A stretch of 64,000 nt of DNA from Enchytraeus crypticus. Taxonomy: Eukaryota > Annelida > Clitellata > Enchytraeida > Enchytraeidae. The DNA is taken from contig CAJHZI010000437.1 in NCBI GenBank assembly GCA_905160935.1, forward strand, positions 1 through 64,000, given 5' to 3'. The notes under the pieces were generated by a model. The model was not told where the DNA came from and did not search any database. It saw only the letters and a list, made by a program, of their open reading frames with translations. This document shows positions 21,238 to 61,398 of this stretch, piece after piece (position 1 is the stretch's first letter; each line of letters begins with the position of its first letter). The translations under genes and the position numbers were made by a program.

Positions 21238-24200
21238 TTAATCAGAGTCGCTATCAGTATCTGAGTAAGCAGCAAGAGAGGCTAGTCCTCCCTGCTTGGA
21301 ATCTATTGCTGCATTTCCGCTACTTTCTACAGCCGCTGCGCCGTTCTTTTCTATCGCAGGAGATTTGGAGAGCGCTTTACCCTTAGACTTCACTATCAAG
21401 CCTCCGAGCAGTTTCTGCTGCAGTGAGGAAGTGGTCGATGATTTGGCTGCAGAATTGACGGGCAACTTGATTGATTTACTTGAACTGTTCGGTGCTTTGA
21501 TAGTATCCTGAATTATATAACAGAAAATTAACAGATAATATAATCAAAATACCAAAAGAATAAATATTAATTAATCAATAAAAATATTTGTAGCCTAATT
21601 TCTCAAACATGTGATAATCAAGCAGAATTCCAAATAGGTAAGTGTAACAGATATATTTGACAAATAATGTGTTGCAGCAGAAATGGCATCAATGTAGAGG
21701 ATAATATTAGATATTCTCTGTGTGAGGCATTAACCGATACAGTACGGTGTTATGTAGTGATAGAACGGCCTATGACTAGATATTAGGTGCGTGGTGAAAG
21801 AAACGAGTAGCATATCATAGTTCATCACAATACACTAAATTTCTGCAAACTTTTTTCTGATGAACGTTTCAGCGACACAATGGATCAATGTTCAACTGTA
21901 GCTCAGCAGATGCCGAGTTCAAAATCCAGCAGCAAACAGCAGAGATGCACTGAGTGAGAGACAGCACAAAACTCTATAGGGAGAAAATTTTCTTATATTG
22001 TTGCTGAAAAGAAATCGTGTTGACACAAAGAAAATCGACTAGGTGCGATTGCAAGGAGAGTTTATAATACCTGAACCAGTATATCAGTGGCACTATCAGC
22101 ACACTTCATCATCTTCTTCACAGGACCACTGTTGCCGTCGCCCTCGTCTGATTCACTATCGCTCTCTAGACGCTTAACGACTCTCGTGCCTTCTGGACCA
22201 AACAAAGACCTGCAGATACACAGAGACGTTGCGAGGATTAATTCACAAATACGCCTGAATGATGCAATACCAGTATTCATTTGAATGATGCAATCAGCTG
22301 TACGTCTGAATGATGCAATACAAGTATACATCTGAATGATGCAATGCAGGTGTACACCTGAATGATGCAATGCAAGTGTACCCTGAATAATGTAATGCAA
22401 GTGTAGGTCGGAATGATGCAATCATATGTACATCTGAATGATGCAATGCAGCTGTACATCTGAATAATGTAATGCAAGTGAAACCTGAATAATGCAATGC
22501 AAGTGTACACCTGAAAGATGCAACACTATATAATTTATGTTACCAGTCCCGAGATTCTATCGATTTCAGATCTCCTGATATTTTACTTTCTGATCTACTC
22601 TACCTGGAATTGATCCCATGACCTCAGGAACAGCTACTTGAAACATCATGATTCTTCCCGATCCTCAACCATTGAACTCTCTAAACATCGTAGTTTATCG
22701 AGATTTTAAATTAAATTTTTGTATATAATTATAAGAGCACACACTTGATGAACCGCTCATCCTCCTCTTCCTCTCTTCTCTTCCTCTCTGCCTCTATCTC
22801 TCGCTGATCTTTCACCAAGCTCTCGATCATGTCTGACTGACTCACAGCACTCTGCTTCTGTCGCTTCTCTCGCAAATCCTCGAGCGTCTCGATCATATCC
22901 ATCTCCTGCAGCGACGCCTTTGTGCGGTTCTCTAACAGCTGTGTCAATCAATCAGTTAATCAATCAATCAGGCAATCAATCAATCAGGTAATCAATCAAT
23001 TAATCAATCAGGTAATCAATCAATTAAATCCTTGAGCGTTTTTATCATATCCATTTCCTGTAGCGACGCCTTCGTGCGGTTCTCTAACAGCTGCATCAAT
23101 CAATCAGTTAATCAGTCAATCAATCAATCAATCAGGTAATCAATCAATCAAATCCTCGAGCGTCTCTATCATGTCCATCTCCTGCAGCGATGCCTTCGTG
23201 CGGTTCTCTAACAGCTGTGTCAATCAATCAGGTAATCAATCAATCAATCAGGTAATCAATCAGGTAATCAATCAGGTAATCAATCAATCAATCAATCTGG
23301 TAGTCAATCAGGCAATCAATCAATCAGGTAATCGATTCCTATCATAACCATTTCCTGTTGTGATAAATAAGCCAATAGATAGTATAACAATGAAATATTT
23401 CCCCCAGGAATAAATGGTAATTAATCCATCTAACTTAGGAAGGCAATGAGAAACCACCTCAGAAGCCATACTTATCCCTATCTCTAGGTTGTATAAGGTA
23501 TGGATAAGGCATATACTTTGTGAAGGGATTAACTTGTTGATCTAAGGAGTGCTCTTATGGACCGAGAATCAGACTTGAGTATGAATATGTACCTTGAACC
23601 TGCCACTTCGCACTGAGAGAGATAGTTATCATAGAGACAAGGAGATAGACAGAGATATATTTAAGAAGATAGTATCAATGACACAGAGAGACACACACAC
23701 AGCACCTTCATGGGATTGTTTTTCTCCTCGGCCTCTTTCTTTTCCAGTTCCTCTCTGGCGAGTCTCTCCGCTGTCCTCGCTGCCTCAAAGTTCCTCGTGG
23801 CTCCAGCCTCCAGGGTGTAGTCCGTGTTCTCTGGGTCGGTCTGGCAACAACAACAACAACATATAACAACAACAAATAACAACAACAAGAAAGTTCCTCG
23901 TGGCTCCAGCCTCCAGGGTGTAGTCCGTGTTCTCTGGGTCCATCTGGCAACAACAACATATAACAACAACAAATAACAACAACAACAACAACATTTATTA
24001 AAGACAACAACAAATAGCAACAGCAAGCAATAACAACAAATAATAGAGATAACAAATTAGAAACGTTTAGTAATAAAAACAGATTTGTAACAATTACCAA
24101 CAACAACAGATTACAACAACAACAACAATAGATTACAACAACAGATTACAACAACAACAGATTACAACAACAACAGATTACAACAACAACAGATTACAAC

Positions 24201-26593
24201 AACAACAGATTAATAGCATCAGATGACTAACAGACTAAGAGGAAGAGAGAAGGTCGCAGTAAATAACATATTAGTCATTCATGCAGCAGAGGTAGCAGTG
24301 ATACTGCTACTCCATTTCTGTCTATGACGTTCGTTGTCAGATTTGAATTTAAAAAGCTGTTAGGCTCAGTTTTCCGAACCACAAGTGAGCAGACAAGGAC
24401 GACAATACTTGAATACTAAGACAGGTGTATCAAGTAAGCCGCGTAATGTGATGTTATTTGAGACACTGTGGCCAGTTGAATGGAATTTTATCCCATTAAT
24501 AAATTTTAATTAGTAGTCTGGTCCTGTTTGACTGGTTATTAGGTTTAATGATTGATTAAATGCTAATGCACATATCTATTAAATTCAGATTTGTTATGTT
24601 TAACTTTAAAAGTATATGCAATACACCTTAAGTTACAAAATGAAATTATTTGGAAAATGCTACATTTATTTATTAAATTTCATTATTTAAAATTATTATT
24701 TTAATTGCACAATGACTCGCTTTTTATTTCAACTTTTCTAATTTTATTTTTATTTTTGCACCAGTTGTTAATTTAAAATGTTAAAATATCTTTAAAAGAT
24801 GTTGGTATCTAAATTTTAAAAATGTTGGTATCTTAATTTAAAAGATATTGGAATCTAGATTTAAAAGATGTTGGTATCTAAAGTTAAGTTGCATAAAGTA
24901 TAAAGTAACCTCAAAGATTAAAATAAATAATTTAATTTATTTTACTGTCTATATATTTAGAAACTATGAAAGTCTGTGTTAAAGAGCAGCTACAATCACT
25001 TTGGTTTACCTTGAAGGCAATCTCTGCCACACATCTCGGGCACTTGATGTAGAATCGAAAGATGTGAAGACCGAGATAATCCTCACCCACCACGTCCTCT
25101 TTACGAGAGTTGAACTTTTTGCCCTTGTAAATGTACTCACCGCACGTGTTGCAGCTACGACAATCAATTTAAACAACTAGTAAATTTTAATTTATTAATT
25201 TAGTTGCTCATCGCAAGTGTTGCAGCTACGACAAACAAGTTGTAACAACGCATACATTGTAATTGATTAATTGATGCACTCTCCATATATTTTTTACTAA
25301 CAAACAAACAAATATAGTAAGTTCTCTGTTGTGTCGCTAAGTCAGATGGAATCTAATTAAAAATGATGATCATAACAATCTACTCTACCAACTTCAAAGA
25401 ATGTCTGTAGATTGTACACCAGGATGTCTAACACACAGTCAGAAAACAACCGTATCATGGGAAAGTGGCAATTTTTAAAATTAATATAACTTTTACTTAC
25501 TTTTAGTTCATATCAGAGCATGTACATTTCAATAAAAAGCATTTTATAAATATAAAGCAGCTGCCTACTATTGGGTCAAATTTCTTCAAAAGCGAAGGGT
25601 CAGAAAAATTAAAATAAAATGAATTCTAATAGCAATATTGTACTGTTTCACTTTTTAGTACATTTACCAACTCAAATAGAATTAATTACATTTTGAAACA
25701 GAATGGCACATGTCAAATTTTTAATTAGTTACTCAAAATTTCTTAACTTTGTAAAGCTACGTATGTAATCAGAAAATTTCAAGTTAATACACAATACAAA
25801 AGGAGATAGTATTGTTTCACACCTATTAAGCTTCCATGAGTAAAATAATAAAAAATATCTTACCGCATATTGAAAGGAGCCATGAGTCGAATGCCAAACT
25901 TTCCATCTCTCTTTACCTTCAGTCGAGGAATCTTACTGGGATCAAAATCAGGCGGATAGTATTTCTGTCAGAGAACAGACACATCAATTATATGAGACTC
26001 GAGAGATATTATCAAAATTTGATAATCTAGAGATCACCTTAAGAACAGTTAATGTGTACATTACAACAGCGATATCATTCATATTTTATATCATGTTCAT
26101 CTATGGAATAAGCACTTGGATTTTCATTAATATTCTAATGTTAAAAGTTGTCTTTTCTCGTAATTTTTTAAACAGGCAAGTTGGCTAACATTTGGTAAAG
26201 AATTTTAAATAGTAATAGACATATTTGGAAGCGTCAATTTTGTGCTGCAGTGAAACGATTTATGACATAAATTTCTTATTCTTAAAACACTTTAAAATAT
26301 TAAGCGCCAGAGCTACTTCTATTATGCTCAAATTATAAATTGTATATATCTTGGGATAGATTTTCTGAATTTTGGAATTTGCACCTTTTTGGACCTTAAT
26401 TTTGCTCACCGGCTTAAATTTGTCTCAATAGTGCTCGACGCTGTCATTGATGGCGATAGCACCTTAATAGTTGTTATGGCAAATGTGCAGTAATTAGTGA
26501 TCAAATTAGTAAGCTTAATAGACTCACTTCTACATACTTTTAAATTTCATATATAGGAGCATAACTTACATTTAAGACTTTTCTCTCAGACAT
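21238..26593 (-). CDS. YJU2: Splicing factor YJU2 (CCDC94/CWC16 family), seven exons
   Basis: Exons on the minus strand: 26593-26570, 25964-25864, 25154-25010, 23840-23706, 22938-22745, 22209-22071 and 21507-21238. Phases fit throughout, giving 335 residues, close to the vertebrate protein. It starts MSERKVLN, followed by [14 protein letters not shown], the family signature. The zinc-binding core pairs RCNTC with KCPRC about 40 residues later and carries [11 protein letters not shown] and [13 protein letters not shown]. Then come the [19 protein letters not shown] block, a charged coiled-coil stretch and an acidic serine-rich tail (DTDSDSD). YJU2 acts in the nucleus as a step-one factor that stabilises the branch helix in the activated spliceosome. 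Exons 3, 4 and 5 each have extra copies of their acceptor and exon start in the upstream intron, and exon 6 follows a 26-bp minisatellite. The exon 5 donor is GTGTGT. Confidence 0.93.
22240..22520 (-). repeat. 26-bp minisatellite upstream of YJU2 exon 6
   Basis: About ten imperfect copies of a 26-bp unit, GAATGATGCAATGCAAGTGT plus ACACCT on the plus strand. On the transcribed strand each unit contains CATTCAGGTGTA, so it carries an AG directly followed by GTGT. The array ends about 30 bp before the true acceptor at 22209. Confidence 0.8.
22940..23335 (-). repeat. CAATCAAT array with two extra copies of the YJU2 exon 5 start
   Basis: A tetranucleotide array (CAAT/CAGGTAAT) contains two copies of the acceptor plus the first 66-70 bases of exon 5, at 23025-23096 and 23150-23220. 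On the minus strand each copy keeps ACAG or GCAG, then CTGTTAGAGAACCGC, and runs about 22 codons before the array brings a TGA. The 23150 copy differs from the true exon at four sites in that span, all third-position synonymous. Confidence 0.85.
23395..23562 (+). repeat. Dispersed repeat family G, copy
   Basis: Inverted relative to 47745-47913. Shared blocks: CCCCCAGGAATAAATGGTAA, GGCAATGAGAAACCA, CAGAAGCCATACTT, AAGGTATGGATAAGGCATA and GATCTAAGGAGTGCTCTTAT. Unknown element type; sits in YJU2 intron 4. Confidence 0.55.
23845..24220 (-). repeat. (CAA)n array with an extra copy of the YJU2 exon 4 start
   Basis: CAA trinucleotide array upstream (minus strand) of exon 4. At 23892-23950 it contains a second copy of CCAG plus the first 54 bases of exon 4, identical except that the first codon reads ATG rather than ACC. 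The copy runs straight back into GTT repeats. Further distal, ATTACAACAACAACAG units repeat at 24105-24210. Confidence 0.85.
25195..25245 (-). repeat. Extra copy of the YJU2 exon 3 acceptor and start
   Basis: 25203-25240 repeats the true boundary at 25137-25170. On the minus strand GTCGTAG is followed by CTGCAACACTTGCGATGAG in the copy and by CTGCAACACGTGCGGTGAG in the exon. The copy then loses similarity and meets a TAA. Confidence 0.75.
26385..26475 (+). repeat. Family C repeat copy
   Basis: TTGCACCTTTTTGGACCTTA, then TTGCTCACCGGCTTAAATT and GTGCTCGACGCTGTCATTGA. Located in YJU2 intron 1. Confidence 0.5.
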
Positions 26594-26960: not shown

Positions 26961-27005
26961 TCTTGTGATAATAAAGCACAATCATAAAGTATACATATTA
27001 CACAA

Positions 27006-27235: not shown

Positions 27236-27248
27236 CTGACATCTCTAA

Positions 27249-31039: not shown

Positions 31040-32962
31040 ATGCCTCGTCTTTACCTCGGAAGATTGAGCGACGATGCAAGAGAGAGAGACATTGAAAAAT
31101 TTCTCAGTGGTTACGGCAGGGTTACAGAGATCATTTTCAAAAATGGCTATGCTTTTGTGGTAAGTATTATTAAGCGCTATATCAGCTATATAATTCTTAA
31201 GTTTTAAAATATTTGAAAATAGTAGTGAATTATTATTACTTTGTATCATTTGAAGTATGACAACATATTCGTTTATTTCAAATTACAGATAAAGCATAAC
31301 AGTCAATATACATAAGGAGGAAAGTTAAATTTTGTCGATTGTATGCTGCTGGAAATAGAAAAGTTTTTTCTATCATAGTTAATACGGTGCACATTTTTTC
31401 ATAAATGTCGACAGGTTATACTTTGCCTAGATCAGTATCGTTAATATTATGCATAAACTGGATGTTGCTAGATGTTGTGTTGATTATATTGTAGTGTGTT
31501 GAGCATGTTGTATTGTGTGTTATCATATTGCAAATTGTGTGACGATTTGTTTTGATACAGGACATAGACGATGATAGGGATGCAGAGGACGCTGTGAATG
31601 ATCTTCATGGGAAGGAGTTGTGTGGAGAAAGGTTGGTAATCACTTCAATTCATTTAATCTCTACTGGAATCTATGCCGTCTATTTGAGCGTTAGAGATTC
31701 GAGCTTTATGCGTTGTTCTTTCTAAAAACACAGGAATTAAACTTACTGTTACTTATCGTCATTGTTAGTAGCAGCCATATTCGGACATGGTACGAAGAAA
31801 TTAATAACTATGCTAGTAAAAATAATCTATTACTACTAATAATTATTAATCAGCCAACCACTAATCGCTATTATAATAGTTTTAAATAGTTTATTATGTA
31901 ATATATAAGTAGATTTCACTGCTGTTAATGACTGAGATGTTTGTTGTGTTTTAGAGTGATACTGGAGTTCTGCAACAGAGAGAGTGGTGGGGGTGGAGGA
32001 AGGGGTAGGAGGGGAGGGGGGTCCAGAGGCTGGGGAGGACCTCCCCCCAGGTCGTCTAGGTTCGACAGAGATAGGCCTGTGTGGATGGACAAGTATGTAT
32101 TGCAATTTTCTGATTCTTCTCAGTATATTACTGCATGGAATGTGCAATGGTAATGTTGTTATGGAAACAGCTGTCAATTCTTTTCATCAATCAGTAAACC
32201 TAATAAATGCTTAGTTAATTAATGATAAAACATGGCATTAATAAATAGAATGTACATTAAACTAGAAAAACTACATAAGGATAACACGTCTTCGTCATTC
32301 TGTTTCACTTGCTTTTGTTTTATTGCTATTTTGTTAGTATCTCTGCTCTATGACAGGCATAGGCTGCTAGCTAGAGCACTGTGATGATTTTCTTTCGGGT
32401 CTGAAGTCATTGAAGACAACACAGAACCAACGTGTAACTATTTAACTGAGTGCTCTGTTGACTAGTTGTCGATTGTGTAAAATAACTATTTTAATAGTGG
32501 ATTTACAATTTGATGTACCGCTTCAAACTGTAAATATTTAGAATTAGATATAATGTTACATGATTAGGTAATAGGAATTTAATGTAATGCTACATAGTTA
32601 TATATTTGATAATATATTAGGTTCAATTAGGCTTCTTGATGTTGATGATAAATATATTTTCATTTACCATCACTGATTGTTAAACATATCAGTTCAATGT
32701 GCCGTTAATGTGGTTCTAGTGACTACACAGGTGTAACAGATTCTTGATGTAGCTTTGTTGAGTGCCTAGCAACACTGTTGATGGATTGATTGTAGATACG
32801 GACCAATCGTGCGCACAAAGTATCGACTGATTGTTGAGAATCTCTCCACAAGAGCGAGCTGGCAGGTAAGAAATTACTTTAAATTTTCTGATGAACCTTG
32901 AGATAAATCAATCACTATCATACTGTGATGTTTTAAATGTATTCATTTAATTTTTACTTGGA

Positions 32963-43500: not shown

Positions 43501-45038
43501 TTTCAAGCTGATCAGTAAATTAATTAATTCAGACTATTAATAATAATTAATTCAGGGAATACAAATAGTTTAGAGCTTGAATTGCTGTTAATTTCGTAAT
43601 TCTGCTAACAATTAGAAAAGTTTTATAAACTTCTGTCTTATAAAAGTGTTATAAACTTCTGCTACTACGATACTACAGTAGAATGACAAAATATAGGAGG
43701 CTGAAGCCTTCGCATTAAATATGCTCGAAACATACTTTATAGAACTCGTCTGTTATATTTTGTTAGTCTGTAATATTTTGTTAGTCCTTGATATTTGTCT
43801 TTAAGAAAACAGGAAATTGAAAATCTTCAATAAACTCGATAACTACTGCATTCGATAAATTTATTTTAATCTAAAGTAAGCATAGATTAGCATCAATTTT
43901 TAAGTTACAACTTCATGTACTTTTGAGATCTTATTTTAATATGTCCACAATATTTAATTCTCGTCGAAATCCTAAGTACCCGCTTATAAATCATGAAATA
44001 AATCAATGGCATGCTTTCATCGGGCGAGGAACCAAACGTTAAACCGTCGTCATCGTGTACTCCTAATCTCGTCATGACCAATCTCTACCTATATTATCGC
44101 CTTGTCAAACTTACTGGTATAGTAAAACCTGGTAAATCTAAGGTTAACGTCAGTTTCATCACTTAAAAGCGTGCCAGTGACGGGCGAGCCCAGGATTTGA
44201 ACCCCGCACATACTGATCCGCGGTCGCATATCTTACCGACATCGCCACTGGCTCCAACCAGTCTGCAGTCAGACGTGGACTAGTCAATCTAAACTGAAGC
44301 CCAACTCTCTTATTTAAAACTACACGTTCTACAAGCTCCTCCAGTGGATTTACCGGATGCACACACGTGATCAGGTTCCCTGTTGAAAGGTTCCCAGGTT
44401 CCAATACCAGCAGTCCATGATCTCTCCGGACTCTCTCTCACACAAGTGAGGATTTCCTGTGACTTTCCGTCACGGGATGTCCTATTGTTAGACCGGAGGT
44501 AGTTTTAACTTGCCGACGATTTTGAGCGCTTTCTTCAAAGCAGCGCTATTTAAAATTGTGTTTATACTCGACTGCTAAGATTTGACGTCAGTTTCCTGAG
44601 CGACAAAGCTGCCAGGAAATATAGCTGGATTCATATATTGATTGATTGAGTTAAATCGACTGTTTTATGAAGGTAAATGTTTATTTAACATTTAACACTT
44701 TGTAAGTATAGCTTCTTCCACTAATAAGCTATACTGAGAGTTTAGACAATAAACTATACTGACAGTTTAGACGGGTGATAAAATTTATCATAACTTAATT
44801 TTATTTTTATTCAATCAGCTTTCATCAATTTTCTCACTTCAGATATTTAAGTTGATTGCTTTATGTGGTATCAACTCTGTACGTAAATCTTAGCAACGCA
44901 ATTCATAACTGGATTACAGGATATTTCTCTTCATTTACGTTTACTACTGTATATCGCCGAATACTCTTCTGTAGACGTAAAGTGTGCTGGAAAATTAAAT
45001 GAATTCTCACCAAATCAGTGACTAATTTATTGAATGAA
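43501..45038. other. Intergenic, divergent promoter region
   Basis: Lies between the divergently transcribed channel and fucosyltransferase genes. It holds one SINE-A copy (44128-44260) and otherwise no recognisable element. Confidence 0.5.
44128..44260 (-). mobile_element. SINE-A family copy
   Basis: Reverse copy: AAGGTTAACGTCAGTTTCAT, GAGCCCAGGATTTGAACCCC, TGATCCGCGGTCG, CATCGCCACTGGCTCCAACC. Confidence 0.7.
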
Positions 45039-49333: not shown

Positions 49334-52300
49334 ATGTTTCAGATAATTTGTACTCTGCTGGTTCTTGGTCTCGCAGTAACCGATGGCGCAAATAGAGCAA
49401 AGAGGGTTAGCTTCATATACGTACATGTATCTTTTATGTTCGTATTTATATACAAGTATTTGTATTTGCATTGGTGGGCATAGTATTTTCACTGTAGTAC
49501 AATATTCTACTACGTGCTGTAATGTGTATTGTACTGTTCAATATCAATTTTACTACATACTGCATTGTGCATTGTACTGCATTGTATCAATTCTGTACAA
49601 TATTCCACTACGTTATGGTATCGTGTATTGTACTGCACTTCATCAATTCTGTGCAATATTCCACTACGTTTTGGTATTGTGTATTGTACTGCATTTCATC
49701 AATTCTGTGCAATACTCTACTACGTACTGTACTTTGTATTGTACTGACTGTATCGATGAGGGGTCCTCTATCCTCTCAATAACGTAGGGGTAACGTCATG
49801 AAGTTTTAAACGACAGATCCTGAGGTGAATTGAACTCTCGTGGGTTCAAATCACAGCCGCGCTGATCTGATAGTTAAATCTCGGGCATTCACTGGACTGG
49901 TTACGCGGAAAATGGAATAAATTGTCTAACGGTTTAAACATGTGATAATAAAAGTGATAGATATCGACATAGTTGATCATGTCACTATAATGCTAATGCT
50001 TGCTTACTTTTTACTTTATTCTATCGCCTTGTAGCAGACGATGAGGGGTCCTCTAAACTCTCAATATCATCATGCGGCAACATCATGAAGTTTTAAATGA
50101 CAGTTCCAGAGGTGAATTGAATTGACTTAGTTGATCACTTCACTGTAATGCTTGTGTACTTTTTACTTCATCACCTTGCAGCAGACGATGCGAGGTCCTC
50201 TATACGACTACGTCCACAGAGACGACGGGATGTTCTCATGGACAGAGTACAGCGTGGAGGAACAAGAGGGCCTCACTACCTACTTCATCAACATGACCTC
50301 ACAACAGTGGTACGACGGTAAGACACCCTCACTACCTACTTCATCAACATGACCTCACAACAGTGGTACGACGGTAAGACAGCTTAACTCCCTGTCAATC
50401 AATAAGAATTTAAAATCCGGTTCCTCGCCATAAGGCAATGTCAGGTACATGTCTGCCCGTCTATGAGCTGCTCTCATAGACACTTTATTCGTATGGTGGA
50501 ACTTCGTTACCATTGATTGATTGATTGATTGAATGATTGATTGATTGATTAGCTGATTGATTGATTGCAGAGACACTTCTCGACAGATACGTATGGTGGC
50601 ACTTTGTTACCATTCATGTTCCGCACAACCTCAGGTTCTTCGACTCCTCCTTCCTCTTCATTGGAAAGGGTCGCAACACTGACAGGTTTAAAATGTTCAT
50701 TAACAACAACAACAACAACAACATCACAACAACAACAACAACAACTTCAGTACAGCTCCACTTTTGTCAATGACAAAATCAAACCCCGTTAAACCTTATT
50801 CAAGCTGACCAGTAAAAGGAAATGGATAAAAAAATCAGTGCAAAACAAAATCCAGAAAACCATATAGGGAATTTAGAAACAAATTTACTATCCAAAACAA
50901 TTATCTTATAACTATCTACCGTTTAGTTACTGCATTTATACAATTCAGAGTTAATTTTATACTTTATAGACTACCGTTTATTTTAAATTATTAATTAATT
51001 GATTGATGTTCATGATTAACTCGCAGCCCGCCATCTGTGACATCGGGTCAGATTAAGGAGATGGGAGAGATAGCTGTATCTACTGGCATGATCACCGGCC
51101 ATGTTAAAACCATTCCCAATCAAGCCATTATCTTTGAGGTAGATATTGATTGGCATATTTCTGCACAATCTGACAAAGCAGATAATTATAATATAACAGA
51201 AGTATAAGAGTTACCATACCAACGTCTAAAAGGGCATTCGGTTGGTGAGCGTCTATGCTCCAAAAATTGCTACAAAAACTAAAACGAATGGAAAAGTCTC
51301 TATTATTATTTTAGTTTATTCTGTTCTATTCTATTCTATTTTATTCTATTCTATTCTATTCTATTCTCTCTTTCTCTTAGTGCACTGCCTACTGGCAGGT
51401 CCATGGTACATAAAGCCTCCACTCTTCTCTGTCTTCCGCCTTCCTCTTCATTTCCACATATGAGTGGGTCTTTAAATCATCTAACATACCTAATCTCGGC
51501 CTGCCCGTGCCTCTTTTTCCTTCCATTCTACCTTCTATGACCTCTTTTAATAGACCTTCCCCCCTTAGAATGTGTCCTATCCATCTCTTCTTCCTATTTC
51601 TTAATACATTTATCAACTGTCTATCTGTGCCAACTCTCTCCAGGACTTCCTCATTTGTAACCTTTTGTGTCCAGCTAATCCTCTCCATTCTTCTCCAAAT
51701 CCACATTTCCAATGCCTCCAGTTTCCTAATATCTTCCTTCCTTAAGGTCCATGTTTCACATCCATACAATAGCGTGGTCCAAACCAAAGTTTTCACTATC
51801 TTTATCTTTGTGTCTTTCTTTAGACTTTTTGTTAATAGTTCTTTTCTACTACCAAAGGCCGCTTTTGCTTGTGCAATCCTACTGCATATTTCCGTCTCAC
51901 ATTTCCCATCATCGGTTATAGTATGACCCAAATATTTGAAACTCCTTACCTGTTTCAATTTCGTACCATTTATTGTGATATTAACTTCACCTTTATTATT
52001 GGACACTCTCATAACCTTCGTCTTTTTTATAGTAATCTTCATGCCATATCTCAAAGCCGTATCATTCAGCCTATCCATTATCTTCTGCAATCCAATCTCG
52101 CTGCCCGCTACCATTCCTTGGTCATCTGCAAATCGTACATCTTGTAACAAATTCCCTCCTACTTTTATTCCTTCTTCCAAGTATTCCATGGCTTCCTCCA
52201 TCATTGCCTCAGCGTAAATGTTAAACAGCAGCGGCGAAATGCTACAACCTTGTCTTACTCCACGTCCTATTTCACCTTCTTCTGAGTATTCTTGTTGGAT

Positions 52301-53366
52301 TTTGATTACTGCTCTTTGATTCATGTACAAGTTCAAAATTAGTCTTCTATCTCTCCAGTCAATTCCTATTCTTTTTAAGATATTCATCATCGTTATCCAA
52401 TCAATCCTGTCAAAGGCCTTCTCGAAGTCTACAAAGCATACAAAAACGTCATTTCCATATTCTAAGCTTCTTTCGCAAAGAACCCGCATTACTCCTATTG
52501 CTTCTCTTGTGCCGCATCCTTTCCTAAAACCAAATTGTGTCTTGCTCAGTATCATCTCTGCTTTCGACTGAATGCGATTATTTACTATCTTTAATAAGAT
52601 CTTCGATGCATGAGGTATTAAGCTTATTGTTCTGTAATCCGAACACTCCACAGCATTAGCTTTTTTGGGAATTGGAATCATCACTGACTTGGTAAAGTCG
52701 TCTGGCCAAATACCGGTACTGTACACTTCCATACATACTTCCATTAACTTTTTGAGTGTTTCTTCTTCCAACATTTTCAAGAATTCTGCTGGGATTTCAT
52801 CCCTTCCTCATACTGTTATTTGCAGAATAAATTTCCTCCTTCATTAAATCGGGGCCCCTTTTATCGTCTTCTATGATATTCTCTTCTTCTATTTTAAAAT
52901 CCTCATGAACTGGTTTCCCAGCCTTATCATACAATTCCTCTACATATTCTCTCCATCTTTCCTATACTTATTCCAGCTCTGTCTTCAATTTCCCATCTTT
53001 ACCCATTCTATTCTATTCTCTTCTATTCTATTCTATTCTGTTCTATTCTATTCTATTCTATTCTATTCTATTCTATCCCATCCCATTATATTCTCTTCTA
53101 TTATTTTATTCTATTCAATTTAATTCTATTCCATTCTATTCTATTCTATTCTATTCAATTTAATTCTATTCAATTCAATTCTATTCTATTCTATTCAATT
53201 CTATTTAATTCTCCACAGAATGATGGACGTGAGAGGACTGAAGACACTTTCATTGCCTGGACATGGAAAAGATTCTACAACGAAACGGTGGATGGAATCG
53301 ATAATCCAGAGATACTTGCTCGTATGCCTATGTGCAAGGTAAATATACTTCACAAATCAATATATA

Positions 53367-53423
<57 letters not shown>

Positions 53424-53465
53424 TGTATAATATATATTATGTGCATGTATATATATATATATATA

Positions 53466-53499
<34 letters not shown>

Positions 53500-55815
53500 C
53501 AGTCAATACATTTATCATTTAATCTGTCAGTCAGTCACTCAGCCGATCAGTCAGTCAATCTGCAACTCAATCAGCTATTTAATTAATCAATTAATCAGAC
53601 AGTCTATCATTCCGTCAATCGGTCACGTTACATTAAGCCCTGGTCTATTTAGGGCACATCGATATTGTAACTTTCTTTCTGTGTGCATTTTCTTGTTCCC
53701 ACATTGTTCCTCTTCTTCTCCAGATCATCCTTTCCTTCTGTATGAACTGCTTCATAGGCGGTTCAAAGCAGTTCTCGTTGACCTCTCCTACTCAACCATT
53801 GCACAGGATCAACACGTAAACCTCCATTCTATTAGTACCTCTCTTTGGAAATCCTCGGTAGTATAGTGGTAAATATCCCCGCCTGTCACGCGGAAACCGG
53901 GGTTCAATTCCCCGTCGGGGAGATCATATTTTTTTTGCTCGCCGGCTTGATGTTGACTCAATTGTGGTCGATGTTGTCATTGATGACTGTAGCACTCTAA
54001 TTGTTGTTTTTGTTTGGACTGATTTCAAGAAATATAATAAAACTCTACTCATCGGATTGGATTCGGCACCATAGCGTTCAATGTTGTCATGGACGACAGA
54101 AGCACTCTACGTAGTTGTTGTTGTTATTGTCTACAGATATGTATAGGCTAATGTGTAAATCTGTGTAGGGATCCGTGCGAGCAATGGACACAATTCAAGA
54201 GTTCGTCAAACAAAAGTATGGATACGACATAGAGAACTTTATGATCGCCGGTCAGTCCAAGGTAGACATCAATTTAATTTAATATTATTTAATTGGCTGG
54301 AGCCAGTGGCGAAGTCGGTAAGATGTCGACCGCGGATCAGTATGTGCGGGGTTTAAATCCTGGGCTCTTCCGTCACTGACATAACTTTCGAGTGAGGAAA
54401 CTGACGTTAACATTAGTTTTTTTAAAATAATTGAATATAAGGTAGAAATTTAATATTCAACGCCTATTTTTATGACGTCGATGAATCTGAGACAATAAGA
54501 TAAACTTGATAGGATGAAAGCCTTGATTATATTTACTGATCAATTTCTTTCTCCATGAATTATATTCTATTACAATATCCAGCATAGACTAGGAATATGC
54601 TCCTAGTGTCTGTCACTCGGAAGAGTATCAGAGTGAAAGAGAGAGTGAGCGAAATAGAGAAGAAGATTTACAATCGATTTCTGTTTTAATTAGTCACGGG
54701 TTTCATTAGTTTACAATTACTTAGTTAATTACTTATTTGGCTAATTATTTAATAAATTACATTACTAGTAAAAACTGGGGTGATAGATTTTAGCACACAG
54801 TTATACTTGTACATTTTTTATTTAGAAGACGAGACGTGAGCTATTTTCATTGTTGACTTAAGAAAGTAGTTATCGCTTAATTAGCTCTGAATAGGAATAT
54901 CTGTGGTTAGGAATATGTACCTTGAACCTGCTTCTTGTCAAAACACTAGATTAGAGAGAGAGAGAAAGAGAGATATAGAGAAAGAGAGAGAGATAGAGAA
55001 AGAGTGCGAGAAGTAGTAATCACTTATTACTTTGTAAAGTTTGTAGACTCTAGACTTTAAAGACAAGGACTCTTTATACTCTGGATCAGTATGTGCGGGT
55101 TCAAATCCTGGCCTCGCCCGTTACAGACATCGCTCTCGAGTGAGGACACTGACGTTAACCTTAGCTTTTACCAGCTTTGCTTTTACTCTGCTGACTAGAG
55201 CCGGACGTTAAATGATTAGTTACTTGTTGTACAGAGAGGCTGGACTACGTGGTTGACTGCTGCTATAGATGATCGTGTGATAGCCATGGCTCCAGTAGTG
55301 TTGACGTGTCTAAATATGGTTGAGGTATGATACAATACATCACAATTCAATACAATACAATACGATACAATACGATACAATACTGTGAAATACAATGCAA
55401 TACAATATAATACAATACAATAAAATACAATACAACACAATAAAATACAATATATGTTTATTGATTGAATGATTGACTGATTGATTGACAGAACTTCCAC
55501 CACTACTACAAGTCGCTAGGGGGCTGTTTATATGTATATTGATTGATTGATTGATTGACAGAACTTTCACCACTACTTCAAGTCGCTAGGGGGCTGGCCG
55601 TTCGCTATGCTCGACTACTGGGCGCAGGGTTTGATGGGACTGCTCGACTCTGAGGAGATGACGAAAATGACCGACATCATCGATCCCATCTGTGAGTCCA
55701 TTTACCTGAGAAAAATGTATATACATGTATATACAATACCTGTATATATATATATATATATATAATTATGTATATATATATATATATATATTATATGTAT
55801 TATATATATATTATA

Positions 55816-55899
<84 letters not shown>

Positions 55900-58800
55900 A
55901 AGAGAGAGAGAGGTGTTAACGTCGGTTTCACCTCTCGAAAGCGATATCAGTGACGGGAGAGCATTTAAAGCCATGTATATTGATCCGCAGTCGGATATTT
56001 TACCGACATCGCCTGAGAGCTATGTAGATTAGCCGCTATAGATTGAAGTTTATCACTAACCATTACAACATTTCTGATGGGTGCACTGTAATCTCTGCAA
56101 CAATAAATGTGTAAAACGTCCCTGATACCATCTTTGAACAAGAAAACTGATGCTATCTTCTCGGAATGCTTAAGATTTTACTACAGTGTATTGTATTCAC
56201 ATTTAGGCCTAATGGTTCCACGTTGTATAACTTTTACGATAATTCATAGCACTGCATTTTAATGTAGCGTTAATGAAAATGTTAGAGCATATAACCTGAT
56301 TAACTATCCACTTTCGTCACCTTCTTTATCTGTTGTATTTCTGCCTGTACCTGTACTGCTGCCTGTACCTGTACTGCTGCCTGTACCTGTACTGCTGCCT
56401 GTACCTGCACTGCTGCCTGTACCTGTACAGTAGCGATCGAATATCTTACGGATATATCCACTGGCAATGGCTGGAGCCAGTGGAGATATCCGTAAGATAT
56501 TCGAACGCGGATCAGTATGTGCGGGGTTCAAATATTGTCTCTCCCGTCACTGACATCGCTTTCGAGTGAGGAAACTGACGTTAACACCAGCTTTACCGAC
56601 TAGTTTACTCCTATCACTGCACACGCAGCCTACAAGGAATACCTGGACATGCCAAAGCTGATCGTTAGCGGAGCCTCGGATGAGTTCTTCATGGTCGACG
56701 ACTACAACTACTTCTTCAAAGATCTGCCTGGAGAGAAAAAGATCTGGTGTGTCCGACCTCTCACAGCTCTCATCTAATCAAATTAATCGTTTAGATTAAA
56801 TTAGGTTTGGAAATTTAATTTAGGTCTTCTAGTGTTTCATTTATCGACTAATAGGAGTCCTGTCTTTGATACATCACCCTGGGACTTTTTTCCTTCAAAG
56901 CTATCAACACTCGGTCTTCCAAGGTGGTCGCCTACAAAGTACTAACCGAGGCCGATGTAGCTTAACTTCGATTATTGTCGCGCAACTAAACTAAGTGCTC
57001 TAAATCCCGTCGTAAACATGGTATATCAAAAGGAATATTCCAGATGATTAAAGATCCACTCGTATGTGGACATGAAGAGGAAAACGGAAGATAGAGATGA
57101 GTGGAAGCGTTATTTACTATTAACTTGCCAGTAGTCGGTGCACTAAGAGAGAGAGAGAGAGAGAGATTAATAGTATCACTTATCTTGTGGAGCTTGTGAC
57201 GGACTAAACATATTAGATATGATATAAATTTGAGTCAAGAAACATAATTCTCTTATGAAGATCTTATGAAGACGCCCTTCATAAGATCTGCCATCCAAAA
57301 GATCGATTGCCATCCATGGCAGACTGGACGACAAATAATGACTGACAAATAATAATGTGCATTCGAAAACTAGAAATACATCTTCACTGAATGTTAATTT
57401 ATGGATTATTTATTGACTAATTAATTATTGTCTGATTAATTAATGTTAATTGATTGGCAGGATGATCGAGAACTCAGGCCATGAGGTACAGGACAGTGAG
57501 TTGGGCAAGCAAGCCTATTGGCAGATGTTGGGTACCTTCTATCTGGGTGTTCTACAGGTCAGCTTTCTCATCACACATTATCTACACATCATTTCACATC
57601 ACACATTATCTACACATCATTTCACATCACACATTATCTACACATCATTTCACATCACACATTATCTACACATCATTTCTCATCACACATTATCTACACA
57701 TCATTTCACATCACACATTATCTATACATCATTTTACATCACACATTATCTACACATCATTTCACATGACATATTATCTATACATCATTTCACATCACAC
57801 ATTATCTACACATCAATTCACATCACACATTATCTATCTACATATCACTTTCCATCTCACATCTACTGCAGACAAGCATATTTCACATCTACATTTACTT
57901 AGTACATAATACTGCATATACCATAGGACGTAAAATATTGCTTAAAATACAGCATGACATTGTAACAGAACATAAATATAGCACAATAGATATAGGCCTA
58001 CTATTCGATAAAAGTTAGCGTATTGTATGAGACATAATATGGTATTAAATAGAGTATAGTACTAAATAAATATAGGCCTCTCGAAATAAATTAACATCAG
58101 ATCGTTGAAGAACAGAAATAATATTGAATAAATCTGGCATATAAAATAGGGCATAATTCTTCAACATTAAACTATAGGATGGATGATATGATTTTATGGT
58201 TTTATTTCCGTGGTATTTTTAAATAGTGAACATTTAATGGACTATATAAAAAAATTTAATGTAAATAATTTAAATCTAAAATCTCTTTGAATGATTTCAG
58301 GGATTCCGCGCTCCCACCATGGATTGGACCATCCAACACGTAAGTGACCTCGTTTTATCTTAATTAAGTATCTCAAACAATTCTCGTAATTAATTAACTT
58401 AAATTAACTTAATTGATCGGGACATTGAACATGATTCACTGATTGCAGCATTTTCGCTGCTGTTATTATTTTGCAATATTATTGGTATCTTGTTATTTCA
58501 ATTTTAAATTTTTAAAGCTTTTTAATTCTATTGTTTTGATGTATTATTTTTATTTGAATATTTTAGCTAGTTTAAAGCATTGATGTCTTGAGTAGACGAA
58601 ACCATAATAAAATCAGAGTATACCACCGATATTATCCTCAGATATGTTCATATTTATTTACATGTATATTTTCTTTAGTCTGGTTTTCTAAACTTTGGAT
58701 TTTCTGTTTCGCGCCGGTTTTGTATCCCTTTATATTTGTTCTCATTTGTTTTTATTTGATTCATAGTGTTCCCCGATTGGGTGAGATTTAGCTCAATAGT

Positions 58801-59782
58801 GCTTTGTATTGTCATTCTAATATCCTATTGATATTCTTTTCTATGAATCTATTTCGTTATTTTCGACCACAGCCAACACTTTATTTGCTAATCGTCAGCT
58901 TGTATTTGTTATGTAGTAACTGGTGTTTTCATTCTAATCTCTTGTAATTAAATTGTTATTGCTCATATGAATCTATTGGGTTATTTCACTATTTCCACTA
59001 TTTATTTAGTTATTTCGTTATTTCCACTATTGCCTATCATGTTTTATGATAAATATTTAAATAAATGTTATAATTTATCTCAAACAGACTGACACAGATG
59101 GAAGCATCATCCTCCTCTCATCGGCAGTTCCTCGAGCTATTGAAGTCTGGTCCTCTCCCAGCATTGCTCCAGACAGGTTCCTCTCTTCGATTACTTCATT
59201 TATTGATCGGATGTATGATTTATTTATTTAGTCGTTTCTTTGGTGTTGGATAAACGGACATCACATGCGAATTTATTTCGCTGGGGTATTTGTGATTCAC
59301 CGCTTTGTGACTGCGGCCAATCTGAAAACATGAAACATATCGTTGCGGAGTGCCCTCTAACCTGCCTACCGGGTGGTCTGTCTACGCTAAGTTGCCCTAC
59401 AAGTAAAGCAAGTATCTGGATTAACGCATACGCTAAATAAAATAACATGTGAATTTGAAGTTCGTTTCCTCCTAGAATGATTTTTCATATAATTTAAACT
59501 GCATGCAGTATGGGCGAAATGTACATGTATATGCCACTATATGGAATAGATTATCCTGTGAATGTTGAAGGAGGGACTGGAGAACATACTACTTGCGAGG
59601 AGTCATTCCCGTAGAGTCTGGAGTGGTCTGGACCAAGTCCGAGGCTGAGAACCTGGTAAGCCATGCTCAATGTTGTCATATTTCATGTTTGACTAACTAA
59701 TAGTTGTTAAGGTGGGAATTGTGAGCTAGAGGAACGGCAAGATAAATTTTCGGGCTCCTTGTAATGTATTTAAATGGGGCCC

Positions 59783-59847
<65 letters not shown>

Positions 59848-61398
59848 TAGTATCTATTATGGGCCCCTAGCAGGGGAATGCATCTCAGAAAAATGAGAGC
59901 TATAGGGGAACAGATTTCCCCTAGCTCTCACGGAGTTCCCCTGTTTCCCTTCCACTTTAACCACTGCTAAAGGCTTACCGCATCAGTGCACTAACATTTC
60001 ATGGTAAGTCGCTGTGAAGATTGCTGGTGATAAAAACGAAAGGAGGAATGTTGCCGCCCTATGTTCTGTACAGAACTCAATGAACTGATGATGATGATGA
60101 AGTGCTAACCGCAGTTGGTCACTCAATGCTTGCGCTCCTACTTTATCTCTAATGGAAAAAGCCGTAAAGAAGATGTTAAAGTCAGTTGCACGTCTCAAGT
60201 GCTCTATCAGTGACAGGGGAGCCCTGGTTTTGAAGCCGTACATTCTGATGCGCGGTCAGGTGTCGTACCGATATCGCACTTTCTACATCCTAATATGTTT
60301 ACTTTTAAAGTATTTTGTTTTGCTATTTACCACTTTATTTTGCTTTACAAAAATTTTATAAGGTTTTCGCTACACAAAAGTATAGACTTTTAATTATAAT
60401 TTATATTTCTAAAGTTCAACGGCGGTATTGCATTGTGCTTCTGATTTAGTTTTGATGACGAGGTTTCTGTTCACAGGGTAACGGTTACTACAGAGCAAAG
60501 TTTGATGTTCCTGAAGAAGGCTATTTGGCTTTCTACATCAAGGTAAGACGTACAAGCAAAGCGTATTAGCTTTTACATAACAAATCAATTAAACTTGAGA
60601 AAATGATTACAATAAAGGAGACACATTAGCCGTATGGGGGGCGAAATTTTATTTTACAAATATGGTATGTAAAATCTTTGTCAAGCCCAAAATATAAATC
60701 GCAGTCTACGTTTTTTGTTGTTTGTTTCAGGTAGTCTATGAGGTTATTTATGAATCATAGACTGCAGGATTATTGCAGTCTATGTTTATTAATGTTTGTT
60801 TCAGGTAGTCTATGTCTATATTGCAGGTTATTTAGGTTGTCTATAAGGTTATTTATGATTCATAGACTGCAGGACTATTGCAGTCTATGTTTTTTGTTGT
60901 TTGTTTCAGGTAGTCTATGAGGTTATTTATGAATTATAGACTGCAGGACTATTGCAGTCTATGTTTATTAATGTTTGTTTCAGGTTGTCTATAAGGTTAT
61001 TTATGATTCATAGACTGCAGGACTATTGCAGTCTATGTTTTTTGTTGTTTGTTTCAGGTAGTCTATGAGGTTATTTATGAATTATAGACTGCAGGACTAT
61101 TGCAGTCTATGTTTATTAATGTTTGTTTCAGGTTGTCTATAAGGTTATTTATGATTCATAGACTGCAGGACTATTGCAGTCTATGTTTTTTGTTGTTTGT
61201 TTCAGGTGGTCTATGAGGTTATTTATGATTTATGGACTGCAGGACTATTGCAGTCTATGTTTTTGTTGTTTGTTTCAGGTGGTCTATGAGGGACCAGAGG
61301 GCAGAGACTACTACTCCACTACTGAGGTCGCCATCATTCCTGACAACTTCCCTCACGAGGATTGCTACGGCGAGACCTGCTTCGGTCGTCTCGTCTAG
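49334..61398 (+). CDS. Secreted AprA / PhoPQ-activated pathogenicity-related-like protein, 15 exons
   Basis: Exons: 49334-49405, 50182-50317, 50571-50685, 51027-51138, 53219-53338, 54169-54261, 55235-55324, 55562-55691, 56629-56746, 57461-57557, 58301-58339, 59088-59176, 59574-59655, 60477-60542, 61279-61398; 492 residues, all phases compatible. A signal peptide (MFQIICTLLVLGLAVTDG) leads to a PF10142-type alpha/beta-hydrolase fold. The nucleophile elbow is AGQSKRGWTTW (S215), with candidate acid D307 (GASDEFF) and His336 (ENSGHEVQ). Family members include Dictyostelium AprA, a secreted proliferation repressor, and bacterial proteins; the reaction is unknown, so secreted hydrolase-like is the safe description. 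Exon 2 has a tandem NAGNAG acceptor (50181/50184). Exon 1 (GTTAGC) and exon 3 (GTTTAA) donors and the exon 13 acceptor (gttgaaggag) are weak. Five exon edges have tandem extra copies. Confidence 0.88.
49750..50060 (+). repeat. Two upstream copies of the AprA exon 2 start, separated by SINE-B sequence
   Basis: True boundary: CACCTTGCAGCAG then ACGATGCGAGGTCCTCTA at 50173-50203. Copy at 50030-50060: TCGCCTTGTAGCAG then ACGATGAGGGGTCCTCTA. Copy at about 49752-49780: GTATCGATGAGGGGTCCTC without a clear acceptor. Each copy runs into TCTCAAT and SINE-B (ACGTCATGAAGTTTTAAA), so exon start plus SINE were duplicated together. Confidence 0.8.
49783..50000 (+). mobile_element. SINE-B family copy
   Basis: Near full length: ACGTAGGGGTAACGTCATGA, TCGTGGGTTCAAATCACAGC, GATAGATATCGACATAGTTG, CACTATAATGC. 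In AprA-like intron 1. Confidence 0.7.
50061..50150 (+). mobile_element. SINE-B copy with internal deletion
   Basis: Begins as AACATCATGAAGTTTTAAAT and jumps to CTTAGTTGATCACTTCACTG; the middle of the element is missing. Confidence 0.6.
50326..50381 (+). repeat. Copy of the AprA exon 2 end with its donor
   Basis: The last 50 or so bases of exon 2 and the GTAAGACA donor are repeated 56 bp downstream with almost no change. Use of the distal donor (50374) would add 56 bases and meet a TGA, so it would be non-productive. Confidence 0.85.
50395..50450 (-). repeat. Dispersed repeat family F, copy
   Basis: CAATCAATAAGAATTTAAAA, TCCGGTTCCTCGCCATAAGG, CAATGTCAGG. Same orientation as 2183. Confidence 0.45.
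50478..50570 (+). repeat. Degenerate copy of the AprA exon 3 start plus (TTGA)n
   Basis: CATAGACACTTTATTCGTAT, GGTGGAACTTCGTTACCATT resembles the true exon 3 start (GCAG, AGACACTTCTCGACAG, ATACGTATGGTGGCACTTTG). It is followed by a TTGATTGATT array that runs to the true acceptor at 50570. Confidence 0.75.
50740..50865 (-). repeat. Family C repeat copy with (CAA)n tail
   Basis: ACAACAACAACAACTTCAGT, then TTTTGTCAATGACAAAATC and AGTGCAAAACAAAATCCAGA. Diverged reverse copy just after exon 3. Confidence 0.5.
51215..51300 (+). repeat. Dispersed repeat family D, copy
   Basis: CATACCAACGTCTAAAAGGG, CATTCGGTTGGTGAGCG, AATTGCTACAAAAACTAAAA, CGAATGGAAAAGTC. Confidence 0.5.
51375..53004 (-). mobile_element. 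Non-LTR retrotransposon (LINE), 5'-truncated, antisense in AprA-like intron 4
   Basis: Covers the reverse-transcriptase frame at 52780-51389 plus upstream sequence reading WREYVEELYDKAGKP in a broken frame (about 52955-52910), then GRDEIPAEFL interrupted by a stop. No endonuclease domain remains. The element is bounded on both sides by TTCTA pentanucleotide arrays (51318-51365 and 53005-53210), so it probably inserted into, or replicated with, that repeat. Its 3' end (CTCTTAGTGCACTGCC in plus) is shared with about nine truncated copies in the window. Confidence 0.8.
51389..52780 (-). CDS. Reverse transcriptase of a non-LTR retrotransposon
   Basis: 463-codon frame starting inside the RT domain. 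Visible RT blocks: IPIPKK...DYRTISLIPHASKILLKI, QFGFRKGCGTREAI, CFVDFEKAFDRIDW, GVRQGCSISPLLFNIY and the catalytic box FADDQ. The C-terminal region has YLGHTI, YGCETWTL, WRRMERISWTQKVTNEEVL and RKKRWIGHILRGEGLL, ending EREEWR-like. It would reverse-transcribe its own RNA by target priming. It lacks the N-terminal endonuclease, and the frame before it is disrupted, so this copy is dead even though the remaining frame is open. The I/Jockey-like assignment is by resemblance only. Confidence 0.85.
   Translation of the reverse strand: MKMLEEETLKKLMEVCMEVYSTGIWPDDFTKSVMIPIPKKANAVECSDYRTISLIPHASKILLKIVNNRIQSKAEMILSKTQFGFRKGCGTREAIGVMRVLCERSLEYGNDVFVCFVDFEKAFDRIDWITMMNILKRIGIDWRDRRLILNLYMNQRAVIKIQQEYSEEGEIGRGVRQGCSISPLLFNIYAEAMMEEAMEYLEEGIKVGGNLLQDVRFADDQGMVAGSEIGLQKIMDRLNDTALRYGMKITIKKTKVMRVSNNKGEVNITINGTKLKQVRSFKYLGHTITDDGKCETEICSRIAQAKAAFGSRKELLTKSLKKDTKIKIVKTLVWTTLLYGCETWTLRKEDIRKLEALEMWIWRRMERISWTQKVTNEEVLERVGTDRQLINVLRNRKKRWIGHILRGEGLLKEVIEGRMEGKRGTGRPRLGMLDDLKTHSYVEMKRKAEDREEWRLYVPWTCQ
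53005..53210. repeat. (TTCTA)n microsatellite before AprA exon 5
   Basis: TTCTATTCTATTCAATT array. It ends ctccacag at the exon 5 acceptor (53218), so it also serves as the pyrimidine-rich tract. Confidence 0.85.
53366..53500. repeat. (TA)n microsatellite
   Basis: TA arrays shortly after the exon 5 donor. Confidence 0.9.
53852..53922 (+). tRNA. tRNA-Asp (anticodon GTC)
   Basis: TCCTCGGTAGTATAGTGG, then CCTGTCACG with anticodon GTC at 53885-53887, and B box GGTTCAATTCC. The acceptor stem TCCTCGG/TCGGGGA closes with a G-U and a U-G pair. Compared with the usual animal tRNA-Asp the variable region is one base short and the anticodon stem has a C-A mismatch at its outer pair. A T8 run at about 53930 is a pol III terminator. 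It lies sense in intron 5 of the AprA-like gene. It could be functional or a young pseudogene. Confidence 0.8.
53938..54125 (+). repeat. Two adjacent family C copies
   Basis: First: GCTCGCCGGCTTGATG, GTCGATGTTGTCATTGATGA, TAGCACTCTAATTGTTG. Second at about 54045: ATCGGATTGGATTCGG, TTCAATGTTGTCATGGACGA, AGCACTCTACG and a TTGTTGTTG tail. The first starts directly at the tRNA terminator. Confidence 0.6.
54295..54420 (+). mobile_element. SINE-A family copy
   Basis: TGGCTGGAGCCAGTGGCGAA, ACCGCGGATCAGTATGTGCG, TTAAATCCTGGGCTC, GAAACTGACGTTAACATTAG. In AprA-like intron 6. Confidence 0.7.
55082..55178 (+). mobile_element. SINE-A copy, 5'-truncated
   Basis: GGATCAGTATGTGCGGGTTC, AAATCCTGGCCTCGCC, ACTGACGTTAACCTTAGC. 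Confidence 0.65.
55328..55452. repeat. (ATACA)n pentanucleotide array
   Basis: ACAATACAATACGATACAAT units, starting a few bases after the exon 7 donor. Confidence 0.85.
55455..55561 (+). repeat. Upstream copy of the AprA exon 8 acceptor and start, with (TTGA)n
   Basis: GATTGATTGACAG then AACTTCCACCACTACTACAA at 55480-55511 duplicates the true boundary at 55550-55581 (AACTTTCACCACTACTTCAA), 70 bp apart. Both have the same TTGATTGACAG acceptor context. The copied frame reaches TGA after 16 codons. Confidence 0.88.
55740..55912. repeat. (TA)n and (GA)n microsatellites
   Basis: TA arrays to about 55861 and then a GA array, ending at a SINE-A copy. Confidence 0.9.
55913..56016 (-). mobile_element. 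SINE-A copy (diverged)
   Basis: Reverse: GGTGTTAACGTCGGTTTCAC, CTCGAAAGCGATATCAGTGA, CGGATATTTTACCGACATCG. The B box is eroded. Confidence 0.55.
56337..56428. repeat. 18-bp tandem repeat
   Basis: About five copies of CTGCCTGTACCTGTACTG, in AprA-like intron 8. Confidence 0.85.
56430..56497. repeat. Perfect-looking hairpin at a SINE-A head
   Basis: CGAATATCTTACGGATAT, ATCCACTGG faces CCAGTGGAGATATCCGTAAG, ATATTCG around a short ATGGCTGGAG loop, about 27 bp per arm with a single mismatch or so. It is made from the SINE-A head and an inverted copy of it. Confidence 0.75.
56467..56598 (+). mobile_element. SINE-A family copy
   Basis: GGCTGGAGCCAGTGGAGATA, GCGGATCAGTATGTGCGGGG, TTCAAATATTGTC, GAAACTGACGTTAACACCAG. 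Confidence 0.65.
57050..57155 (+). mobile_element. LINE 3' end fragment (sense)
   Basis: GATCCACTCGTATGTGGACA, TGAAGAGGAAAACGGAAGAT, TAACTTGCCAGTAGTCGGTG, followed by GA repeats. Confidence 0.65.
57568..57850. repeat. 28-bp tandem repeat directly after the AprA exon 10 donor
   Basis: About ten copies of CACATCACACATTATCTACA plus CATCATTT, beginning within about 15 bases of the GTCAGC donor at 57558. The long histidine/threonine frames are artefacts of this repeat. Confidence 0.9.
59231..59445 (+). pseudogene. LINE ORF2 tail fragment
   Basis: Encodes FRWGICDSPLCDCGQ, then NMKHIVAECPL, SCPTSKASIWINAYAK and a stop. It is the same reverse-transcriptase tail as the minus-strand remnant at 14346-14940, in frame here. 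5'-truncated and without an RT core; in AprA-like intron 12. Confidence 0.75.
59789..59850. repeat. (CT)n microsatellite
   Basis: Pure CT array of about 50 bp in AprA-like intron 13. Confidence 0.95.
60176..60285 (-). mobile_element. SINE-A copy (diverged)
   Basis: Keeps reverse traces TTAAAGTCAGTTGCA, TATCAGTGACAGGGGAGCC, TTTTGAAGCCGTACATTCTG and CCGATATCGC. Confidence 0.45.
60715..61278 (+). repeat. Eight-copy array of the last AprA exon acceptor
   Basis: TTTGTTTCAG followed by GTAGTCTATGAGG-like or GTTGTCTATAAGG-like sequence occurs with AGs at 60730, 60804, 60909, 60983, 61057, 61131 and 61205, before the true acceptor at 61278. The period is about 74 bp, with two alternating variants giving a 148-bp higher-order unit. 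Every unit also has CATAGACTGCAGGACTATTG, CAGTCTATG, an imperfect hairpin just upstream of the pyrimidine tract. Decoy frames read VVYEVIYE or similar, then a stop. Confidence 0.9.

Follow-up and report, generated by a model that had tools for sequence, protein, structure and literature searches.

Local tandem copies of exon edges in the introns of two genes of Enchytraeus crypticus

Results

In two genes of the window, the whole 64,000-nucleotide stretch of Enchytraeus crypticus DNA analysed here, short segments that run across a splice site into the adjoining exon are repeated as local direct copies within the flanking introns. These copies are probably ordinary local tandem duplications in repeat-rich introns, and not a splicing device. 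An excess of such duplications at acceptors is possible and not established, as the tests partly disagree. The strongest non-random feature is an association of TTGA repeats with acceptors. The earlier note on this DNA, in which the copies were described and were considered to be more than scattered duplication, is partly confirmed in its observation and partly supported in its interpretation.

The two genes and their models

The rebuilt model of the YJU2 gene encodes a product of 335 aa with a Pfam match (Table 1), and its best relative among solved structures is a YJU2/CCDC94 chain (E 3.7e-76). The rebuilt model of the AprA-like gene is a single continuous frame of 492 aa, matching the Pfam family PhoPQ_related (PF10142, E 4.5e-101). 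Together the two genes have 40 exon-intron boundaries (20 acceptors and 20 donors) and 20 introns totalling 14,934 bases.

Two introns of the AprA-like gene contain further elements. In intron 4 there is a LINE-like element with a reverse transcriptase open frame (51392-52807, minus strand; PF00078, E 1.2e-32) and with ATTCT repeats on its borders, and in intron 5 a predicted tRNA-Asp gene (anticodon gtc; 53852-53922, plus strand).

Table 1. Coordinates, in the window, of the two genes, of the copies of their exon edges and of the neighbouring TTGA tracts
Feature	Positions	Strand	Score or match
YJU2 (CCDC94/CWC16) gene, 7 coding exons	21238..26593	-	PF04502, E 6.6e-93
YJU2 exons 1-4, in coding order	26570-26593, 25864-25964, 25010-25154, 23706-23840	-	
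YJU2 exons 5-7, in coding order	22745-22938, 22071-22209, 21238-21507	-	
YJU2 exon 3 head copy (~19 bases) and acceptor, 71 bases upstream of true acceptor	25207..25225	-	score 26
YJU2 exon 4 head copy, 54 bases, TTG-rich tract, unit 103	23890..23943	-	score 20 masked, 31 unmasked
YJU2 exon 5 head, distal copy, preceded by TTGA tract and AG	23149..23214	-	score 23 masked, 33 unmasked
YJU2 exon 5 head, proximal copy, preceded by TTGA tract and AG	23025..23090	-	alignment
AprA-like / PhoPQ-activated pathogenicity-related gene, 15 coding exons	49334..61398	+	PF10142
AprA exon 2 head, older copy, acceptor AG gone	49754..49779	+	alignment
AprA exon 2 head copy and acceptor	50035..50058	+	score 25
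AprA exon 2 tail and donor, 56-base tandem copy	50327..50382	+	TRF 100% matches, score 29
AprA exon 3 head, degraded partial copy, upstream of TTGA tract	50481..50516	+	score 9 masked, 12 unmasked
TTGA microsatellite, last base 3 before AprA exon 3	50512..50567	+	
AprA exon 8 head copy, preceded by TTGA tract and AG	55492..55526	+	score 19 masked, 30 unmasked
AprA exon 15 acceptor and ~14 exon bases, array of 7 extra copies, unit ~74	60730..61277	+	score 28
TTGA motif just upstream of SR-protein-like gene exon (32796)	32784..32792	+	

Copies at exon edges

Each boundary was represented by an oriented probe made up of 15 bases of intron and 20 of exon, with microsatellites masked, which was searched for in the 600 bases on each side; a local duplicate was called when the probe score was at least 19. 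With this 35-base probe, boundary-spanning local duplicates were found at 7 of the 40 boundaries (17.5%), i.e. at 6 of the 20 acceptors (YJU2 exons 3, 4, and 5; AprA exons 2, 8, and 15) and at 1 of the 20 donors (AprA exon 2). The other 33 boundaries gave scores of 13 or less. Because none of 1752 control probes reached 19 after the sequence had been shuffled (blocks of two bases dealt out, masked bases removed), chance similarity is ruled out as the source of the seven duplicates.

Adjacent direct copies holding both intron and exon bases are therefore present at these seven boundaries, and in partial form at AprA exon 3. The acceptor of the latter belongs to the 33 that scored below the threshold, and a degraded, gapped partial copy of the exon head can be aligned there. 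Copies had previously been listed for eight edges; seven of these are real, while that at AprA exon 3 is only such a remnant. A 28-base intronic array at the donor of AprA exon 10 merely abuts the boundary and was left out of the count.

The number of extra copies was correctly given as one to seven. AprA exon 15 has seven, and two are found at YJU2 exon 5. The acceptor of AprA exon 2 likewise has two, one of them without its AG, and the donor of that exon has a single, exact copy. YJU2 exons 3 and 4 and AprA exon 8 have one each. The divergence differs widely between copies, which is consistent with separate events; the YJU2 exon 4 copy has two mismatches, both within the first codon. The microsatellite that had been noted as usually accompanying the copies is present in some cases, with none at either the acceptor or the donor of AprA exon 2.

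Three of the copied segments have additional features, which were seen by eye. Five or six changes, one of them, at the junction, being ambiguous, are private to the exon part of the proximal YJU2 exon 5 copy, and on the coding strand each is a G-to-A change. The older of the AprA exon 2 head copies continues into an interspersed repeat (49760-49860), which recurs in the opposite orientation at 63340-63430. In the AprA exon 15 array, the repeated 74-base unit contains an inverted repeat (catagactgca ... tgcagtctatg) that could form a hairpin.

The presence of the boundary inside every duplicated segment is forced by geometry and carries no functional information. A tandem duplication confined to the exon remains exonic, and one confined to the intron would not look like a copy of an exon; exon sequence copied into an intron must therefore stem from a duplication that took in the boundary. 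Furthermore, the remainder of the exon is continuous with the inner copy alone, which necessarily places the extra copies upstream of an acceptor or downstream of a donor. Boundary-spanning was accordingly rejected as a signal in itself, and the sharing of a boundary, which had been put forward as a sign of something more than scattered duplication, loses its weight. The true exon does keep the exon-proximal position, as observed earlier, and this too is uninformative, the inner copy being by geometry the working exon.

Comparison of boundaries with the intron background

Among the 12,567 intronic positions of YJU2 and the AprA-like gene, 15.7% are locally duplicated, a proportion to be compared with the 17.5% of the boundaries. 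When the boundary arrays are removed, the intronic proportion is 8.4% (of 11,146 positions). Over the whole 64-kb window, 7.9% of 5816 grid positions are duplicated, and the boundaries of the two genes exceed this value.

Rotation of the duplication track against the gene structure gave no excess: 5.8 duplicated boundaries were expected and 7 seen (P 0.37), with P values of 0.29 and 0.26 at two other thresholds and of 0.06 to 0.13 for acceptors alone. The probe used in the rotation was unoriented by strand and had a tolerance of three bases, and at threshold 19 it counted 5 acceptors and 2 donors. The binomial tests were based on the oriented counts of 6 acceptors and 1 donor. Against the background of 15.7% they gave P values of 0.44 for all boundaries and 0.08 for acceptors. 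Against the stricter background of 8.4% the excess is weak for all boundaries (P 0.047) and more distinct for acceptors alone (P 0.005).

In four other genes of the window (SR-like, p53, TNFR-like, and ASC), with exons drawn by eye from the reading frame and the splice consensus, none of 15 boundaries is duplicated. The p53 and ASC genes were identified by Pfam matches, and the other two are what we take to be an SR-like and a TNFR-like gene; the RS region of the former (36260-36631) gave no Pfam match. When all 55 boundaries are pooled, P is 0.18 against 8.4% and 0.78 against 15.7%. For all 28 acceptors, 6 of which are duplicated, the corresponding values are 0.026 and 0.27.

Some other features of the window may be recorded here. 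The p53 family gene (16528-17438, plus strand) has its DNA-binding and tetramerisation domains in a single exon (PF00870, E 1.6e-51; PF07710, E 4.1e-10). In the SR-like gene, a tandem array of 51-58 base units (35337-35511, plus strand) begins at an exon donor and overlaps the exon by about 4 bases. A 40-base tandem repeat outside both genes (39253-39408; 3.9 copies, 99% matches) is nearly exact. An open frame of 565 aa (45003-46697, plus strand), long for an AT-rich and intron-rich region, matches glycosyl transferase family 11 (PF01531, E 3.6e-31).

The duplications may also be counted as events. The window contains 25 local duplication families, of which 13 are in the YJU2 and AprA-like genes. 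With the families placed randomly at viable positions, 2.3 of the 13 are expected to span a boundary, and 7 do so (P 0.0014). The 13 families omit the partial copy at AprA exon 3; with its inclusion the count becomes 8 of 14 (P 0.0004). For this test the merged family at 49489-50215 was split in two, and unit and array lengths were set by hand. Coding constraint protects the exon half, and a boundary-spanning copy thereby remains recognisable for longer. When a detectability advantage of 2 or 3 is allowed for, P becomes 0.027 or 0.098, respectively (0.012 or 0.057 with AprA exon 3 included). Moreover, the two genes were selected for showing the pattern, and the event-level excess is sensitive to that choice.

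Overall, the view that the copies are more than scattered duplication is not established: the rotation test and the absence of duplicates at the 15 boundaries elsewhere speak against it, and the event-level excess, sensitive as it is to detectability, speaks for it.

TTGA repeats upstream of acceptors

In the YJU2 and AprA-like genes, sense TTGA 8-mers are found within 40 bases upstream of 6 of the 20 acceptors (P 3e-5), namely 2 of 6 in YJU2 (exons 3 and 5) and 4 of 14 in the AprA-like gene (exons 3, 4, 8, and 10). The intron background of the sense motif, with arrays included, is 7.3% of positions in YJU2 and 1.6% in the AprA-like gene. None of the 20 acceptors has the antisense motif nearby, and of the 20 donors 1 is followed by the sense motif within 40 bases. 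Among the 8 acceptors drawn in the other genes, TTGA is present at 2 (the SR-like exon at 32796, in a gene that the earlier note does not list, and the TNFR-like exon at 5357; P 0.005 against the window background of 1.3%). For all genes together, 8 of 28 acceptors have the sense motif as compared with 1.3% of positions (P 2e-9 if the sites are independent). These P values are to be read with the fact that the motif was suggested by the initial finding in the same sequence.

The sequence TTGAT conforms to yUnAy, the branch-point consensus of metazoans, and by this likeness such repeats may be tolerated or favoured at acceptors. In literature searches aimed at microsatellites or branch points, TTGA repeats at acceptors were not found in the titles or the openings of the abstracts among the matches listed.

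Duplicates are present at 3 of the 8 TTGA-bearing acceptors (YJU2 exons 3 and 5; AprA exon 8) and at 3 of the 20 others (YJU2 exon 4; AprA exons 2 and 15). From these proportions, the TTGA repeat would be at most a contributing cause of duplication.

Discussion

Origin of the copies

Ordinary local tandem duplication is the reading that we favour. Copying in the introns of these genes extends well beyond exon edges: away from the boundaries there are arrays with units of 18, 23/46, 26, and 56 bases in which no exon sequence is copied. At several of the boundary copies, the exon resembles the TTGA/TTG repeat at the junction point. Thus the copy junctions of YJU2 exon 5, AprA exon 3, and AprA exon 8 fall in or close to TTGA sequence; the distal YJU2 exon 5 copy ends at GATTTG before ATTGATTG, and the AprA exon 3 copy at CCATT before GATTGATTG. 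Exon sequence that runs into a TTGA/TTG repeat is consistent with slippage or template switching that had one of its ends within a microsatellite. Such microsatellites or microhomologies were seen by eye at several junctions and are absent from others, the AprA exon 2 duplications having no repeat.

Probably, in slippage or template switching, one end often lay in a TTGA/TTG repeat while a short stretch of the exon that matched by chance supplied the other, so that the duplicated segment would run from the intron into the exon head. The inner copy would remain a working acceptor, so the change would be tolerated, and the outer copy would then decay, presumably neutrally, as intron sequence. 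The preponderance of acceptors over donors (6 to 1) could perhaps result from the TTGA-type repeats that closely precede many acceptors of this genome. Of the origins proposed earlier, slippage or template switching near flanking microsatellites is the best reading of the copies.

Five observations count against ordinary duplication as the whole account, i.e. the event-level excess, the acceptor P of 0.005 (0.026 with the acceptors of all genes), the higher proportion of duplicated boundaries in the two genes (17.5%) than of duplicated positions in the whole window (7.9%), the AprA exon 2 copies without an adjacent microsatellite, and the retention of AG in 13 of the 14 acceptor copies of the clear cases. 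The last figure includes seven copies of a single array (AprA exon 15), and all the copies were found by similarity that includes the AG.

If 3' splice sites were a mutational hotspot, the TTGA/TTG repeats would drive the duplication of acceptor and exon head at a raised rate, and the placement of TTGA at acceptors would perhaps be due to the match of TTGAT with the branch-point consensus. The occurrence of sense TTGA upstream of acceptors, both in the two genes and in the others, the six duplicated acceptors against one donor, and the event-level excess of boundary-spanning families are all in favour of a hotspot. Nevertheless, we regard it as unlikely, because the TTGA-bearing acceptors are not clearly more often duplicated (3 of 8 as compared with 3 of 20), four of them (AprA exons 4 and 10, SR-like, and TNFR-like) have no duplicate and AprA exon 3 has only a partial one, and the motif itself came from the initial finding. 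A wider form of this idea, in which acceptors of the lineage commonly hold a sense-strand TTGA microsatellite, built of overlapping TTGAT motifs like branch points, that both serves splicing and drives the repeated copying of acceptor and exon head into the intron, thereby providing spare acceptors on which selection could act, is somewhat more doubtful still.

It has also been suggested that the copies tune splicing, trigger decay, or buffer the loss of splice sites, roles which are a guess from the sequence. As functional decoys, the copied acceptors would compete with the true ones and send transcripts to decay, for example in autoregulation of YJU2, a tempting possibility since YJU2 is itself a splicing factor. 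Splicing to any of the 13 AG-bearing acceptor copies would indeed lead to a stop 9 to 52 codons past the junction, in agreement with the early stops noted before. However, early stops are usual in any intron sequence, and they were rejected as a sign of selection. In addition, the AprA-like gene holds more copies and is no splicing factor, its exon 15 is the last coding exon, where junction-dependent decay would not obviously be triggered, and divergence and copy number vary freely. A decoy function is thus very improbable.

An assembly error, in which haplotypes were strung together head to tail or repeats were left unresolved, would apply above all to the exact 56-base donor copy, in which the copies match at 100%, and it is scarcely credible in view of the aligned acceptor copies, each of which differs from the true site at at least one position.

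Comparison with known systems

Duplicated splice sites of the kind described here provide material from which alternative splicing can evolve and with which intron boundaries can move. Two lessons apply to other genomes as well. No function should be proposed for boundary-spanning copies until they have been set against intronic duplications with the same unit length. A microsatellite that resembles a splice signal and lies near acceptors could influence the sites at which such duplications occur. In a PNAS paper of 2007 on human introns that derive from tandem arrays, Zhuo et al. reportedly described tandemly duplicated splice sites together with alternative splicing.

Internal tandem repeats at exon-intron boundaries are known from human genes in segmental duplications, for which 162 alignments are given in the portion of the paper by De Grassi and Ciccarelli (2009, PMC2812944) that is drawn on here. 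The present copies are like these human cases in that tandem repeat units lie at exon-intron boundaries. They differ in that the human repeats, as presented in that portion, vary between paralogues and alter the extent of exon or intron, whereas the present copies do not imply any alteration of the mature transcript.

Tandem genomic duplication of a segment that contains AGGT is regarded, in the relevant part of a review (PMC3443670), as a real and potentially widespread way in which introns are gained. For introns that arose by tandem duplication in Drosophila, a premature stop was found in 18 of 18 (PMC2891723, in the part concerned with these introns). The copies in YJU2 and the AprA-like gene resemble intron gain of this type, insofar as these sources outline it, in that the duplicated segment carries splice-site sequence. 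In contrast to the duplication of an exonic AGGT that creates a new intron, it is an existing acceptor or donor that has been duplicated within its intron in the present case. The copies are another instance of the already described tandem duplication across splice sites.
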